From Methanobacteriota archaeon (GTDB lineage: Archaea; Halobacteriota; Methanosarcinia; Methanosarcinales; Methanosarcinaceae), in assembly GCA_016841625.1 (NCBI GenBank), contig JAENYU010000012.1, forward strand, positions 35,620-68,440: 32,821 bases of DNA, read 5' to 3'. The position numbers and the translations under genes were made by a program. Below, one piece after another: positions 13,314-32,821 of the stretch. Numbering within the stretch: position 1 is the stretch's first letter; each line of letters begins with the position of its first letter. The notes beneath the pieces were generated by a model, which ran no database searches, had not been told where the DNA came from, and saw nothing but the letters and a program-made list of their open reading frames with translations.

Positions 13314-14096
13314 TCATATCTTTTCAAGGGGTTTTGACATCTCCTTGTAATGATTGAAGAGTTCTTCACACCATTTCAGCGAGCTTTCGTCAAAGCTCAT
13401 CAGGCGCTGGTGGTCGAATTTCCCCTTCCTGTCAAATAGTACCAGGGAACAGAAACGGTCTGTTACCACGTTTTTAAGGGTTATTTTCTTGTCGCAAATG
13501 TAAATTTTCGTGTTTTTGGAATCCAGAAGCTCCTGAAGTTCTTCTGTGTAGTCTTTTTTCATTCTTTCATAGACCGGTTCGGTCAGGATGAGGTACATCT
13601 CCGTCCCTTTTTGCGCCAGTTCGGAATAAAGGGTCAGATAGAGGGGGTGGAAATAAGAAAGGAATGTCATGACGCGACCGGACTCAAGGAGGTTTTTCTT
13701 GAAGTCTTCCGGCACTTCAAAGAGGCGGTTAAGGTCGGGCTCGAGCAGGAAATAGTTTCCCAGTTCCTCAATCCTGCTAAGAAGGTTCTCGGGAATTGCG
13801 CTCAGGTCGTGGTTTACCCAGTAATCGTAATTTTCTTCGAAAACCCTCACGGTATTTAAGAGGGGTTCCATCTTTTCGACAACTATTTCCCCCATTTCCG
13901 AGAGCTGGTACCTGTCGCTTTCCTGATTGATCAGGTGGCCTTCTTTCAATTTCTTTATCTGGGGCATAATCGACGTCGAGCTGACGTTCAGGGCTGTTTT
14001 TATCTCGTCGCTGGTTTTTGGCCCCTCTTCCAGCAGGAGCAGTACATTTGTTCTTTTTTCAGAAAGAAACGCCAGATCAATAAGTGAAACCTTCAT
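13314..14096 (-). CDS. Second Msr-family transcriptional regulator
   Basis: This 260-residue paralog of MsrC has the same architecture: an N-terminal winged helix (GPKTSDEIKTALNVSSTSIMPQ) and a C-terminal DUF1724/FilR1-type region ending in FDHQRLMSFDESSLKW. A GGGGAGGT ribosome-binding site lies about ten bases before the start. Family members activate or repress methyltransferase genes. This one has no mta or mts gene beside it; its upstream neighbour is an unrelated SAM-dependent methyltransferase on the same strand, 370 bases away. It may act in trans, including on mtsF, since cross-regulation among Msr proteins is known. The target cannot be read from sequence. Confidence 0.85.
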   Translation of the reverse strand: MKVSLIDLAFLSEKRTNVLLLLEEGPKTSDEIKTALNVSSTSIMPQIKKLKEGHLINQESDRYQLSEMGEIVVEKMEPLLNTVRVFEENYDYWVNHDLSAIPENLLSRIEELGNYFLLEPDLNRLFEVPEDFKKNLLESGRVMTFLSYFHPLYLTLYSELAQKGTEMYLILTEPVYERMKKDYTEELQELLDSKNTKIYICDKKITLKNVVTDRFCSLVLFDRKGKFDHQRLMSFDESSLKWCEELFNHYKEMSKPLEKI

Positions 14097-28913: not shown

Positions 28914-29063
28914 AAAATGGGTGTAAGCGTGAAACAAATCGAATAAATATCTGCCTGCAGCTACTCAGCTGCAATTTTTTGATTTTGTTAATTTAAGATA
29001 CATATTCTATTTTTTCCCTCTAAATTCAACAAAAAAAAGGCCCATCTCCATAAAAAATAGTAT

Positions 29064-29135
29064 AGTCCTGAGCGGATTCGAACCGCTGTCCCGGGCTCCA
29101 AAGGCCCGAAGGATTGACCGCTACCCTACAGGACT
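29064..29135 (-). tRNA. tRNA-Gln (anticodon TTG)
   Basis: The 72-base minus-strand sequence folds as a tRNA. The acceptor AGTCCTG pairs with CAGGACT, the anticodon stem CGGGC/GCCCG encloses the loop CTTTGGA with anticodon TTG, and the T arm contains GGTTCGAATCC. CCA is not encoded. A T run follows (about 29051-29057 in plus coordinates), which could end transcription. A TATA-like ATAAATAAG lies about 25-35 bases upstream. Confidence 0.95.
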
Positions 29136-29213: not shown

Positions 29214-29346
29214 GTTTCTGGTTGAAAATACGTATCCTGTCCAATTCTATGAAGGGTTCGAAACATTTTCAGGGAAATACTTTTTCGTGTGATTAAAAAT
29301 TTTCAATCAATTAATTTAAAATAATTTCCAATATAATTGTATGATT
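29214..29346 (+). promoter_or_regulatory. Upstream block of small-RNA unit 1
   Basis: It begins GTTTCTGGTTGAAAATAC and includes the shared CCAATTCTATG. The TATA box TTTAAAATA is at 29315-29323, 101 bases from the block start and 32 bases before the GGG predicted to start the RNA. The same spacing occurs in all four units. Confidence 0.7.
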
Positions 29347-29514
29347 GGGACTAGGAGAGAAAAGGGGAGAGATCAGACGCAGAATGAAATGCCTGAGGAC
29401 TCTGATCCTGCTTCGTATCCATATGCATGGGGCGCATATCTTCGGAGCGGTTGTATTGGGGGATACATTAAAAGGGTGAAGCGTTCTCGGGCTTCTTCTT
29501 CAGCTGCTTTTTTT
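29347..29514 (+). ncRNA. Tandem structured small RNA, unit 1
   Basis: The predicted RNA starts at GGGA. A 44-base purine-rich tail leads to closing stem P1: GCCTGAGGAC (29391-29400) with GTTCTCGGGC (29483-29492), ten pairs. A short P2, ATCC/GGGT, follows. P3 has GCTTCG/CGGAGC outside and ATATGC/GCATAT inside around an ATGGGGC loop. P4 is TGTAT/ATACA around TGGGGG. The stem sequences differ from unit 2 but pairing is kept. A T run at 29507-29514 may end the RNA. The function is unknown. Confidence 0.72.
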
Positions 29515-29797
29515 ACTTCTCTTGCTATGCTTTTTTATTGATGTGTTTTTTTGTGTGCTTTCATGCTTTTTTATGTTATTTTTTACTGTGTTTTCATCTG
29601 TTTTTTTGCTCTGTCTTCTTTTGGAAATGGCTTTCTCCGGGGTACTTTTTTTGGCATGTCGATAGAATCCGGTTTTTTGGGGATTTAGGAGAAGGAAAGT
29701 TAGGCGGCGGCAGGAATCCTGAAAGACGGGGAATTACTGCTCTCTTGATTCACTGGCCTCTTGATTCCGTCAGTTCCATATCCCATCCATATCCAGG
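29515..29797. other. Spacer between RNA units 1 and 2
   Basis: T-rich sequence with several T runs after unit 1, then GC-richer sequence with no conserved structure seen. Reading frames here overlap the RNA units and have no ribosome-binding site. Confidence 0.5.
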
Positions 29798-29930
29798 GTT
29801 TCTGGTTGAAAATACATTCATTGTCCAATTCTATGCAGGGCTTGAAAGTTTTTCAAGGACTAACTTTTTTTTTTGATTAAAAATTTTCAATGAATTAATT
29901 TAAAATAATTTATTGTATAATTGTATATTT
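29798..29930 (+). promoter_or_regulatory. Upstream block of small-RNA unit 2
   Basis: It begins GTTTCTGGTTGAAAATAC, contains TGTCCAATTCTATGCAGGG, and then the perfect inverted repeat CTTGAAA-gtt-TTTCAAG (29841-29857). The TATA box TTTAAAATA is at 29899-29907, 32 bases before the predicted start. Confidence 0.7.
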
Positions 29931-30126
29931 GGGAAATGGTAAGTGAACCGGGGAAACGAATCGGGGGAAATAAAAAGATTAAAATAAATGCCTGGAAATA
30001 ACTGATCCTGCTCCGGATCCGTGCTTAAGGGGAGCACATCTTCGGAGGGACTGCAGTGGGGGCTGCAGTAAAAAAAGGATCAGGAATTTCCGGGCTTCTT
30101 CTTACGCTGCATATCTCTTCTTTTTT
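29931..30126 (+). ncRNA. Tandem structured small RNA, unit 2
   Basis: A 59-base tail leads to P1 GCCTGGAAAT (29990-29999) with ATTTCCGGGC (30086-30095). P2 is CTGATCC (30002-30008) with GGATCAG (30077-30083). P3 has CTCCG/CGGAG outside and GTGCT/AGCAC inside around TAAGGGG. P4 is ACTGCAG (30050-30056) with CTGCAGT (30063-30069) around TGGGGG. This is the clearest of the four units and the best reference fold. A T run ends near 30126. A 21-codon frame starts six bases into the RNA but differs by several replacements from unit 3. Confidence 0.78.
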
Positions 30127-30344
30127 CTCTGTTTCCTGCTCTTCTTTTTGATTTTCTTTTGTTATTCTGTTTTTCTGGCCTGTATTCTTTGGAAATGATG
30201 TAATTTCTCCGTTTATTTCTGTTTCTGCCCGCTACCGTGCTGGTGAGCTCAGGTTTTATGGTCCTATTTTTACATTCTGCGGCAGGGATGCGCCGAATTT
30301 GAGGAAACAGCCGTGCCACTATCGTGTCTGTTTCATTGGACGAT
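30127..30344. other. Spacer between RNA units 2 and 3
   Basis: T-rich sequence after unit 2, then unremarkable sequence. No gene or conserved fold seen. Confidence 0.5.
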
Positions 30345-30477
30345 GTTTCTGATTAAAAATAAGTTTCCTGTCGAATTCTATGCAGGGCTTGAAAGTTTTT
30401 CAAAAACTAACTTTTTTTTGAGATTAAAACTTTTCAATGAATTAATTTAAAATAATTTCCTGTAGTATTGTATATTT
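30345..30477 (+). promoter_or_regulatory. Upstream block of small-RNA unit 3
   Basis: It begins GTTTCTGATTAAAAATAA, includes AATTCTATGCAGGGC and the inverted repeat TTGAAA-gtt-TTTCAA (30389-30403). The TATA box TTTAAAATA is at 30446-30454, 32 bases before the predicted start. Confidence 0.7.
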
Positions 30478-30681
30478 GGGAAATGGTAAGTGAACAGGGG
30501 AAACGAATCGGGGGACTAAACCGATTGAAAATAAATGCCTGGAAATCACTGATCTTGCTCCGGACCCGTGCTTAAGGGGAGCACATCTTCGGAGGGACTG
30601 TAGTGGGGACTGCAGTACTAAAGGATCAGGAATTCCGGGCTTCTTATTACTCTCATTTTCCTCCGTTTTTTTATTTTTTTT
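30478..30681 (+). ncRNA. Tandem structured small RNA, unit 3
   Basis: Very close to unit 2, with a 59-base tail. P1 is GCCTGGAA (30537-30544) with TTCCGGGC (30633-30640). P2 is CTGATCT with GGATCAG, including one U-G pair. P3 inner stem GTGCT/AGCAC encloses TAAGGGG. P4 is ACTGTAG (30597-30603) with CTGCAGT (30610-30616), where a C-to-T change is tolerated as a U-G pair, and its loop is TGGGGA. T runs at 30666-30680 may end the RNA. Confidence 0.75.
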
Positions 30682-30843
30682 ACTTGTTTACGCTTGTGTT
30701 TTTCCCTGTGAGTTGTTCTGCTTTCCTGCGCGTTTAATTTCTCTGCTTTTTCTGTGTGTTTGCTTTATTAGCTTCTTCTCCCCTTTCAAGCTCCTGCCTC
30801 ACGCTGTGTCTCTGTGAAAGGAGGTATCTTTTCCGGAATCTAT
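30682..30843. other. Spacer between RNA units 3 and 4
   Basis: T-rich sequence with no gene and no conserved structure seen. Confidence 0.5.
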
Positions 30844-30975
30844 CTCTCTAATTGAAAATATGCCTCCTGTACAATTCTATGCAGGTTTAGAAACTTTTTT
30901 AGAAAGGGTATTTTTCATATGATTAAAAATTTTCAACGAAGTAATTTAAAATAATTTGGTGGGTAATTGTATATT
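30844..30975 (+). promoter_or_regulatory. Upstream block of small-RNA unit 4
   Basis: The most diverged copy. It retains TTGAAAATA, TGTACAATTCTATGCAGG and the TATA box TTTAAAATA (30945-30953) at the same 101-base offset. The inverted repeat has decayed here. Confidence 0.65.
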
Positions 30976-31210
30976 GGATATGGAAAGTGAACAAGAAAAG
31001 ACATGATAATTGTGAAAGAAATGCCTGGGTTTGCTAATCCTGCTCCTGATTCTACTCTTGAGGGAGGGCGGATTTCCGGAGCTGCTGTATGAGGGATGCA
31101 GTAAAAAGGATGAAGCATTCTCGGGCATCTTCTCACTCTGTACATCTCACTCTGTACATCTCACTCTGTATATCTTACTCTGCACATCTCCTCATTTTTA
31201 TTTTTATCTG
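30976..31210 (+). ncRNA. Tandem structured small RNA, unit 4
   Basis: A tail of about 47 bases leads to P1 GCCTGGG (31023-31029) with CTCGGGC (31120-31126). P2 is ATCC/GGAT. The outer P3 is GCTCC (31042-31046) with GGAGC (31078-31082), but its inner stem is weak. P4 is CTGTAT (31085-31090) with ATGCAG (31096-31101) around GAGGG. The 3' side contains a repeated CTCACTCTGTACAT (about 31130-31190) before T runs, so the end is uncertain. Confidence 0.65.
31130..31190. repeat. 14-base tandem repeat after RNA unit 4
   Basis: About four units related to CTCACTCTGTACAT. The first two are nearly identical and the later ones diverge. Confidence 0.8.
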
Positions 31211-31618
31211 TTTTTACATTCTCTGTTCTTCTCTGCTCTTTTATGGGAATGTAGGGCGAGTTGCTCAGCAGGCCGTGAGGCAGAAAACGTTAAAAAATGA
31301 GAATTTTCCGGGTGCTCCTGTTTTTGAAAGTTTTGGGTAACTGCTTCTTCGATTGTTTCCCCCCCGGCTTGTTACGTCCAGTTCCAGGCAGAGCGACTCG
31401 TAAGCTTCCCCTTTTTTTGTTCACGATTGAAGTTAGTGTGAAAGTTTCCTTCATGTTTCCAGATCGGGATCGGGGCTAAGTTAAATATTTCGCAGCTTTT
31501 TTGAGGTTTTTTGCAGGACCGGGCTTCCAGGGTCAATATTTATAAAAGTAATTTTATACGGATTATTGTTTGGAAGCACTTACTAAAGGAAGCTATCAGG
31601 AAGTGGAGACAAAAACTC
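31211..31618. other. Intergenic region before the UroD-family methyltransferase
   Basis: About 400 bases with no supportable gene. A TATA-like AATATTTATAAAAG (about 31533-31547) could drive the methyltransferase, giving a leader of about 50 bases. Confidence 0.4.
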
Positions 31619-32731
31619 ATGGTTGAAAAAATGACTTCCAGGGAGCGTTTTATCAATGCTCTCGAAAGAAAAGAGGTGGACCGTGTTCCTTACGGCTACC
31701 TCTGGTTTGGCGCCGGGAATGCGGTGCTGGAGCGGATGGGCGCAAGCCTCAAAGATGTGTATTATTCGGCAGAGGGGATTGCGCGGGCGCAGATCCTTGC
31801 CCGGGAAATGTACCACCACGATAACGTGATGTCCCCCTGGGGCTGCCTCCTTGTGGAAGCCGAGGCGCTCGGGACGAAGGTGAACCTCAAGGAAAACGGA
31901 TACCCTACCGTGGAGAAGTACGCCCTGAAGTCTGCCGGGGAACATGAATTGATCAATCCCCGGGACATCGGGAAGTCCGAACGGGTAAAGACCATAGCAG
32001 GGTCAATCGAAATCCTCAAGAAGGAAATCGGGGATGAGGCTTTTATTTCCGGGGCAACGCTGGCCCCCCTTATGCTGGCTTCCCAGGTCCTGGGAGGGAG
32101 CAGGCTCTGCATTGATATGCTTAAAGATTCCGAAGCTTTCCATGCCCTGCTCGAAAAACTCACGGAAAGCTGCATCCTCTTTGCTGACTCCATGCTCGAA
32201 GCCGGAGCTGATGGCATCTTTGTCGAAAACGGGGAGAGTACCGGCGACCTCTTCAGTCCGCAAATGGCCGAGGAGTTCATGCTGCCCTACACAAAGAAAC
32301 TTTACGACCACATCAAGGCAAAAGGCGGGTACGTCATCTCCCACAACTGCGCAGCCCTTGCCTTCTACGACCTGGAAATGAAACTTGAGCCCCACGCCCT
32401 GAACTTTGCCTTCGGGGACGTCAAATTGCTCGGGAAAAAGTACGGGATCGAATGCAAGAAGCTCCACAACCACAACAACATTGGCTGCGGGCCAAGGCAC
32501 TGCTTCAAGGAGTTTAAAGCCTTCTCCGATGCCGGCATCTGCCTCATGGGCAACATCATCCCTGACGCCCCCCTGGCCGGAGGTCGGACCGAAATCGAGC
32601 ATGAGGTGAAAAGCTGCCTTGAAGCTGCCCCCGAAAAAGGTTTCATCCTTTCCACGGGCTGCGAGATCCCACTAAATACGCCGCTTGAGAAAATGGAAAT
32701 ACTCTGGGAAGCAATAAAGGGAAGGCTTTGA
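31619..32731 (+). CDS. UroD/MtaA-superfamily methyltransferase, orphan
   Basis: Started at 31619 (MVEKMTSRERFINALERKEV), because the 36 upstream codons are unlike the family and GGAG lies 11 bases before this ATG; the product has 370 residues. The zinc triad of corrinoid methyltransferases is present: His242-x-Cys244 (SHNCAA) and Cys348 (STGCEIP). The C-terminal TGCEIPLNTPLEKM matches the MtaA/CmuA/MtsF branch rather than heme-pathway UroD. It would move a methyl group between a corrinoid protein and a thiol or other acceptor. No corrinoid protein, activator or Msr gene is adjacent, so its partner and substrate are unknown. Confidence 0.8.
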   Translation: MVEKMTSRERFINALERKEVDRVPYGYLWFGAGNAVLERMGASLKDVYYSAEGIARAQILAREMYHHDNVMSPWGCLLVEAEALGTKVNLKENGYPTVEKYALKSAGEHELINPRDIGKSERVKTIAGSIEILKKEIGDEAFISGATLAPLMLASQVLGGSRLCIDMLKDSEAFHALLEKLTESCILFADSMLEAGADGIFVENGESTGDLFSPQMAEEFMLPYTKKLYDHIKAKGGYVISHNCAALAFYDLEMKLEPHALNFAFGDVKLLGKKYGIECKKLHNHNNIGCGPRHCFKEFKAFSDAGICLMGNIIPDAPLAGGRTEIEHEVKSCLEAAPEKGFILSTGCEIPLNTPLEKMEILWEAIKGRL

Positions 32732-32768: not shown

Positions 32769-32821
32769 CATTCTTCATTCTTCATTCTTCATTCTTCATT
32801 CTTCATTCTTCATTCTTCATT
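32769..32821. repeat. CATTCTT tandem repeat at the window edge
   Basis: About seven and a half perfect copies of the 7-mer CATTCTT follow the methyltransferase stop by about 40 bases and continue to the window end. Confidence 0.95.

Follow-up and report, generated by a model that had tools for sequence, protein, structure and literature searches.

Four tandem units lie between a tRNA-Gln gene and a URO-D family gene

The window, the whole analysed stretch of 32,821 nucleotides from a member of the Methanosarcinaceae, carries a promoter-containing repeat of 137 nt in four copies, which start at positions 29214, 29798, 30345 and 30844 (repeat-to-repeat spacing of 584, 547 and 499 nt) and are 74–82% identical to the first copy. 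Each copy belongs to a unit with its own TATA-like block and its own core, which bears out the four-unit tandem set proposed in an earlier, sequence-only reading of this DNA. The cluster and its boundaries are laid out as follows, with the fold z scores and the bit scores of covariance model R1 explained below.

29063..29135, minus strand: tRNA-Gln (TTG), the conserved boundary upstream of the RNA cluster; same tRNA at 10/10 cluster loci, other genomes
29214..29345, plus strand: unit 1 conserved upstream/promoter region, with the TATA-like block at 29309-29327
29383..29506, plus strand: unit 1 RNA core (outer helix, P1, P1b, P2/P3 arm, P4); fold z −2.2; R1 115.3 bits
29893..29911, plus strand: unit 2 TATA-like block
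29982..30109, plus strand: unit 2 RNA core; fold z −6.8; R1 131.1 bits
30440..30458, plus strand: unit 3 TATA-like block
30529..30654, plus strand: unit 3 RNA core; fold z −5.5; R1 121.7 bits
30939..30957, plus strand: unit 4 TATA-like block, one mismatch
31015..31140, plus strand: unit 4 RNA core; fold z −4.7; R1 100.1 bits
31511..32731, plus strand: URO-D family gene, MtaA/MtbA-like, the conserved boundary downstream of the cluster; orthologues adjoin the cluster in other genomes

Units 1–3 carry the TATA-like block AATTAATTTAAAATAATTT without mismatch and unit 4 with a single one, so that a TATA box per unit, as first noted, holds. The cores are about 125 nt long in each of the four units, and the T-rich sequence said to follow them is indeed found 3′ of every core, most weakly in unit 4. 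In that unit, a 14-nt tandem repeat, TCTCACTCTGTACA, of about 4–5 copies occupies positions 31131-31200, where units 1–3 carry T-rich sequence.

Regarding the surroundings, the product of the URO-D gene at 31511-32731 resembles MtaA/MtbA while falling far short of the cut-off of either named family, and the gene stands beside the RNA cluster across both genera that carry it. A 7-nt tandem repeat (TCATTCT) runs from 32770 up to the window end at 32821. At 317-2212 on the minus strand, the window encodes a B12-binding and URO-D fusion protein, built like the Mts proteins and similar corrinoid/methyltransferase fusions; together with the nearby URO-D, RACo and CobW genes, this marks a methylotrophy region. 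The methyltransferase region also contains, at 13314-14096 on the minus strand, a regulator that combines an HVO_A0261-type N-terminal domain with a FilR1 domain in its middle part.

The four cores share a three-way junction fold

Single-sequence folds were scored against dinucleotide shuffles, and each window core was found to fold on its own into the same shape, with the z scores listed above. The fold is a three-way junction, wherein a long P1 is continued by P1b, a P2 arm is capped by P3, and hairpin P4 forms the second arm; the P1 strands of unit 2 are GCCUGGAAAU/AUUUCCGGGC. The junction is closed by an additional short outer helix that pairs AAAGAA with UUCUU. Thus, the shape common to the four units that had been described as P1, P2, P3 and P4 stands, but its anatomy needs revision, in that P3 sits at the end of the P2 arm, P4 makes up the other arm, and the outer AAAGAA/UUCUU helix had not been included. 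Because the four window sequences alone covary only weakly, homologues were needed.

A conserved RNA family in two genera

Searching at the DNA level recovered this cluster from each of the three further genomes covered in the window's genus, at 4–6 matches per genome. In the 19 aligned units of this genus, the promoter block is nearly invariant, and the cores vary with compensatory changes. A covariance model, R1, built from these 19 units only, all from the window's genus, matched 35 of the 112 genomes of the family at 1–19 copies each, with E-values down to 1e-28, and down to 7e-28 outside the training genus. The matching genomes belong to only two genera, the window's own (4/4 genomes) and Methanosarcina. 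A second model, R2, built from 73 copies, matched 35/238 genomes of the class, and these fall into two of the 39 genera searched, both already known from R1; the RNA was not found in any of the others. All Methanosarcina genomes among those listed are positive, and we infer that no Methanosarcina genome is among 57 family genomes without a match, which were themselves not among the genomes listed. Nearly all of the species checked in Methanosarcina and its sister genus carry multiple copies of the RNA, which are both dispersed and clustered within genomes; the window's genome itself has a fifth copy on another contig. A pattern scan of genome contigs returned 27 stretches, 26 of them from Methanosarcina, Methanosarcinaceae or a bin matching the congener G001, and the remaining one, alphaproteobacterial, was taken as chance.

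The search of relatives with a covariance model, suggested at the outset, thus recovered homologues in 35 genomes of two genera, which places the observation made in the window far beyond chance. Across the 73 copies, both partners change in 33 of the 41 base pairs, and 89.9% of the cells are paired as against 38–53% with the partners slid; none of 500 shuffles reached any of these measures. Since the 73-copy alignment had been fitted to the model, 54 copies outside the training set were realigned with MAFFT and folded by RNAalifold without guidance. The same junction emerged (z = −13 relative to column shuffles), and among single folds of these copies, P1 forms in 54/54 and exactly two hairpins in 52/54. 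The covariation is therefore strong on the 73 copies and reproduced by an unsupervised fold of independent sequences.

No named RNA family had been recognized in the units, and this agrees with Rfam 15, where the window units have no match at the gathering threshold or at E ≤ 1, and where seven Methanosarcina loci have no match at E ≤ 0.5 except tRNA. We conclude with near certainty that these units represent a conserved structured RNA family. The family is previously unlisted in that it is absent from Rfam, while a prior entry of single members in the M. mazei transcriptome catalogue is not excluded. A strongly supported structured RNA family that Rfam lacks thus runs through a group of model methanogens, among which M. 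acetivorans is genetically tractable.

A nearly invariant promoter block precedes the cores

The promoter block TAATTAATTTAAAATAATT lies 61–107 nt 5′ of the core in 72/73 family copies, with a median of one mismatch, and in 32 of these 72 the TATA-like stretch is followed, 31 nt on, by the start of a GGAGTTGGGA-like element. In the four genomes scanned, all matches to the block that have one mismatch or none are units of the family. Such a near-invariant and family-specific block makes the units look separately promoted and co-regulated, although transcription is inferred here. T-rich sequence follows most family cores. Each RNA is probably about 180–200 nt long and transcribed from its own, nearly identical promoter, for which no transcript evidence is available.

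The tandem cluster and its paralogue lineages are ancient

The tRNA-Gln(TTG) gene lies on the opposite strand just upstream in 10/10 cluster loci, and a URO-D-type methyltransferase gene with 81–91% identity lies downstream in most of them; in the congener G001, identity of the adjacent URO-D protein drops to 67%, and it may be a paralogue. The number of units per cluster varies from 1 to 6. These conserved flanks indicate that the tandem cluster predates the split of the two genera, namely that it is ancestral. Within it, separate lineages of orthologues can be told apart for unit 1, for units 2/3, for unit 4 and for unit 6, so that the paralogue lineages are older than the species. Dosage or functional diversification had been offered as the meaning of the tandem set, and it is diversification that gains support, from orthologous paralogue lineages kept across species. 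The dispersed singletons are also syntenic, and those of one lineage are flanked in several species by a pair of MASE3-PAS-HisKA_2 kinases. The initial four-gene tandem therefore extends to a genus-wide and dispersed family, with a conserved tRNA-Gln/methyltransferase locus and with dispersed copies that cluster with sensor-kinase genes.

Dispersed copies lie near HisKA_2 sensor-kinase genes

In four complete Methanosarcina genomes (G103, G109, G108 and G110), a HisKA_2 domain is encoded no more than 4 kb away from 15 of the 36 RNA loci, as against 1.7 expected from circular shifts, none of 20,000 of which reached 15. With the conserved kinase-pair locus left out, the count is 11/32 against 1.5 expected. 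Transposases show no such HisKA_2 effect (3/100 against 4.4 expected), and RNA loci are not enriched beside transposases. The nearest kinases are co-directional with the RNA in 12/15 cases. Duplication of kinase-RNA blocks could partly contribute to this neighbourhood, and the focal tRNA-Gln cluster is not itself near a HisKA_2 kinase, the distance being 429 kb in one 5.75-Mb Methanosarcina genome.

M. acetivorans has 53 histidine kinases, mostly orphan, at a kinase-to-regulator ratio of 3:1, together with 11 receiver-only regulators; few of its response regulators have an output domain, and the existence of "alternative but unknown signalling partners" has been suggested (PMC11784639). The tie between the RNAs and the kinases bears on this open question of orphan-kinase outputs, and the link is now directly testable.

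The two hairpins usually carry G-rich loops

The commonest loop in both hairpins is UGGGGG, which is exact in 37/73 of the P3 loops (L3) and 35/73 of the P4 loops (L4), and GGGG is present in 67/73 L4. In a simple reading, hexaloops occur in 44/73 L3 and 36/73 L4, and 22 copies have an identical loop in both hairpins; in the window's genus, L3 varies (UAAGGGG, UGAGGG). One subfamily differs in context, as seven aligned copies without a T-rich tail lie 50–105 nt 5′ of an ORF for a 46-aa zinc-ribbon protein with two CxxC motifs (P = 4e-5). This ORF (MKHLKICPKCN...) is found at L083:3230-3367 and also 3′ of the RNA in L097, L090, L100, L113 and others, and relatives of the protein occur in genomes without the RNA, other genera included.

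Proposed mode of action and alternatives

We consider it likely that the RNAs are trans-acting regulators. The best specific reading, held tentatively and with somewhat less than even confidence, is that they are sibling trans-acting sRNAs whose paired loops dock a protein of the HisKA_2 kinase network, with partner, targets and expression all inferred. In such a mechanism, the three-way junction would hold two hairpins side by side, each usually with a G-rich loop, typically UGGGGG, and the paired loops would dock a single partner shared by all copies. This partner would most likely be a dimeric protein that binds RNA, with the HisKA_2 sensor-kinase network setting its activity or level. The common promoter would co-regulate the copies, copy number would set the dose, and the variable leader and stems would separate the paralogues. 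In the one subfamily, the RNA would serve as the 5′ leader of the 46-aa zinc-ribbon gene, which would make this small protein a candidate partner, though only a candidate, because its family is wider than the RNA.

The main rival to protein docking is mRNA base pairing, wherein the G-rich loops and purine-rich leaders of sibling trans-acting sRNAs would pair with C/U-rich mRNA segments without a dedicated protein partner. The Qrr, LhrC and csRNA families of bacteria pair with mRNAs, and the separate promoters, G-rich loops, purine-rich leaders and paralogue divergence all fit such a mode, as does the pairing action of M. mazei sRNA162 (PMC3510493). However, the loops are G-rich and not of the C/U-rich type that covers ribosome-binding sites, and the adjacent methyltransferase mRNA, the sole target tested, gave no signal, the unpaired parts pairing with it no more favourably than shuffled sequences did in most of 26 tests; we regard base pairing as possible but unlikely. 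Control in cis, with the core as a 5′ untranslated structure of the next gene acting by attenuation or by ligand or protein binding, would accommodate both the zinc-ribbon subfamily, with its spacing, missing T-rich tail and P = 4e-5, and the co-direction of 12/15 nearest kinases. It seems improbable for the family at large, since the tandem units precede the next unit's promoter rather than a gene, T-rich tails follow most cores, and the downstream genes are diverse, some being on the opposite strand. The strong structural conservation, many copies and common promoter could also belong to a housekeeping or structural ribonucleoprotein RNA, multiplied for dosage and not a regulator, but its restriction to two genera, the persistence of distinct paralogue lineages and the kinase neighbourhood render this improbable.

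Two further explanations remain. The dispersed multicopy distribution would suit a selfish repeat or a MITE-like element that spreads within genomes, whereas the copies within a genome are strongly diverged and yet keep orthologous positions across species, with compensatory changes throughout, and viral contigs gave no exact match to a core pattern. A mobile element was rejected on the missing transposase link and the conserved synteny, and this already disfavoured reading is very improbable. The remaining proposal, that the units are small mRNAs for a conserved peptide, rests on unit 1 and unit 6 orthologues, which in some species allow a frame of 27 aa; the window's unit 1 interrupts this frame, units 2 and 3 have stops in it, and Methanosarcina does not keep the start codon seen in the window's genus. 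The ORFs of family members do not exceed those of shuffled sequences in length (26.2 versus 27.9 aa), and no protein frame is common to the four units, exactly as the sequence-only reading had held. A conserved peptide was therefore rejected as the cause of the conservation, and the small-mRNA proposal is hardly credible.

Returning to trans-acting sRNAs that dock a protein, we raise as a speculative and rather unlikely extension that the RNAs are the missing output of the orphan HisKA_2 kinases of Methanosarcina, wherein a kinase-controlled protein, possibly the 46-aa zinc-ribbon protein or another, would bind the paired G-rich loops and the multicopy RNAs would titrate or redirect that protein. 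If true, this would be an archaeal two-component system working through RNA and not through DNA-binding response regulators.

Comparison with known systems

To our knowledge, multicopy sibling sRNAs are a bacterial theme. With multiple homologous RNA genes in a genome, some of them in tandem and each with its own, similar promoter, the present family has the gene arrangement of sibling sRNAs, with independent transcripts and shared targets only inferred, and resembles the bacterial ones (Qrr, LhrC, csRNAs and the neisserial sRNAs), but it is archaeal, has 1–19 copies, forms a large three-way junction with two G-rich loops, and is unrelated in sequence. With the CsrB/RsmZ-type sponge RNAs it shares repeated hairpins with a G-rich (GGA-like) loop and occurrence in more than one copy, and it differs in having two loops per RNA and many genes.

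Nearer at hand, M. mazei sRNA162/sRNA171 are likewise intergenic Methanosarcina sRNAs of about 190 nt with their own promoter and a paralogue; however, they are single copy in M. acetivorans and M. barkeri, are built of SL1-3 with a 39-nt linker, and lie beside an ArsR regulator (PMC3510493), whereas the present family has 10 copies in one 5.75-Mb Methanosarcina genome and a three-way junction. Identity with sRNA162/171 was rejected on architecture and copy number, without direct comparison with the sRNA162 sequence.

The ANTAR domain is a binder of dual-hexaloop RNA that is linked to kinases, and its target RNA is defined by loop A1 and G4 (PMC3369931). The present RNAs share with that target two adjacent hairpins, whose loops are hexanucleotides in only part of the copies by the simple reading above, G4 in the commonest loop and a link to sensor-kinase genes, but the commonest loop has U1 instead of A1, their hairpins lie inside a closed junction, and they are mostly standalone RNAs. 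A search for ANTAR (PF03861) in 14 genomes gave no match over the cut-off, the model being short and no control genome passing either, and membership was rejected on the U at loop position 1 and the lack of an ANTAR protein found in these 14 genomes. Nevertheless, by analogy, the family may work like the ANTAR system without being a member of it.
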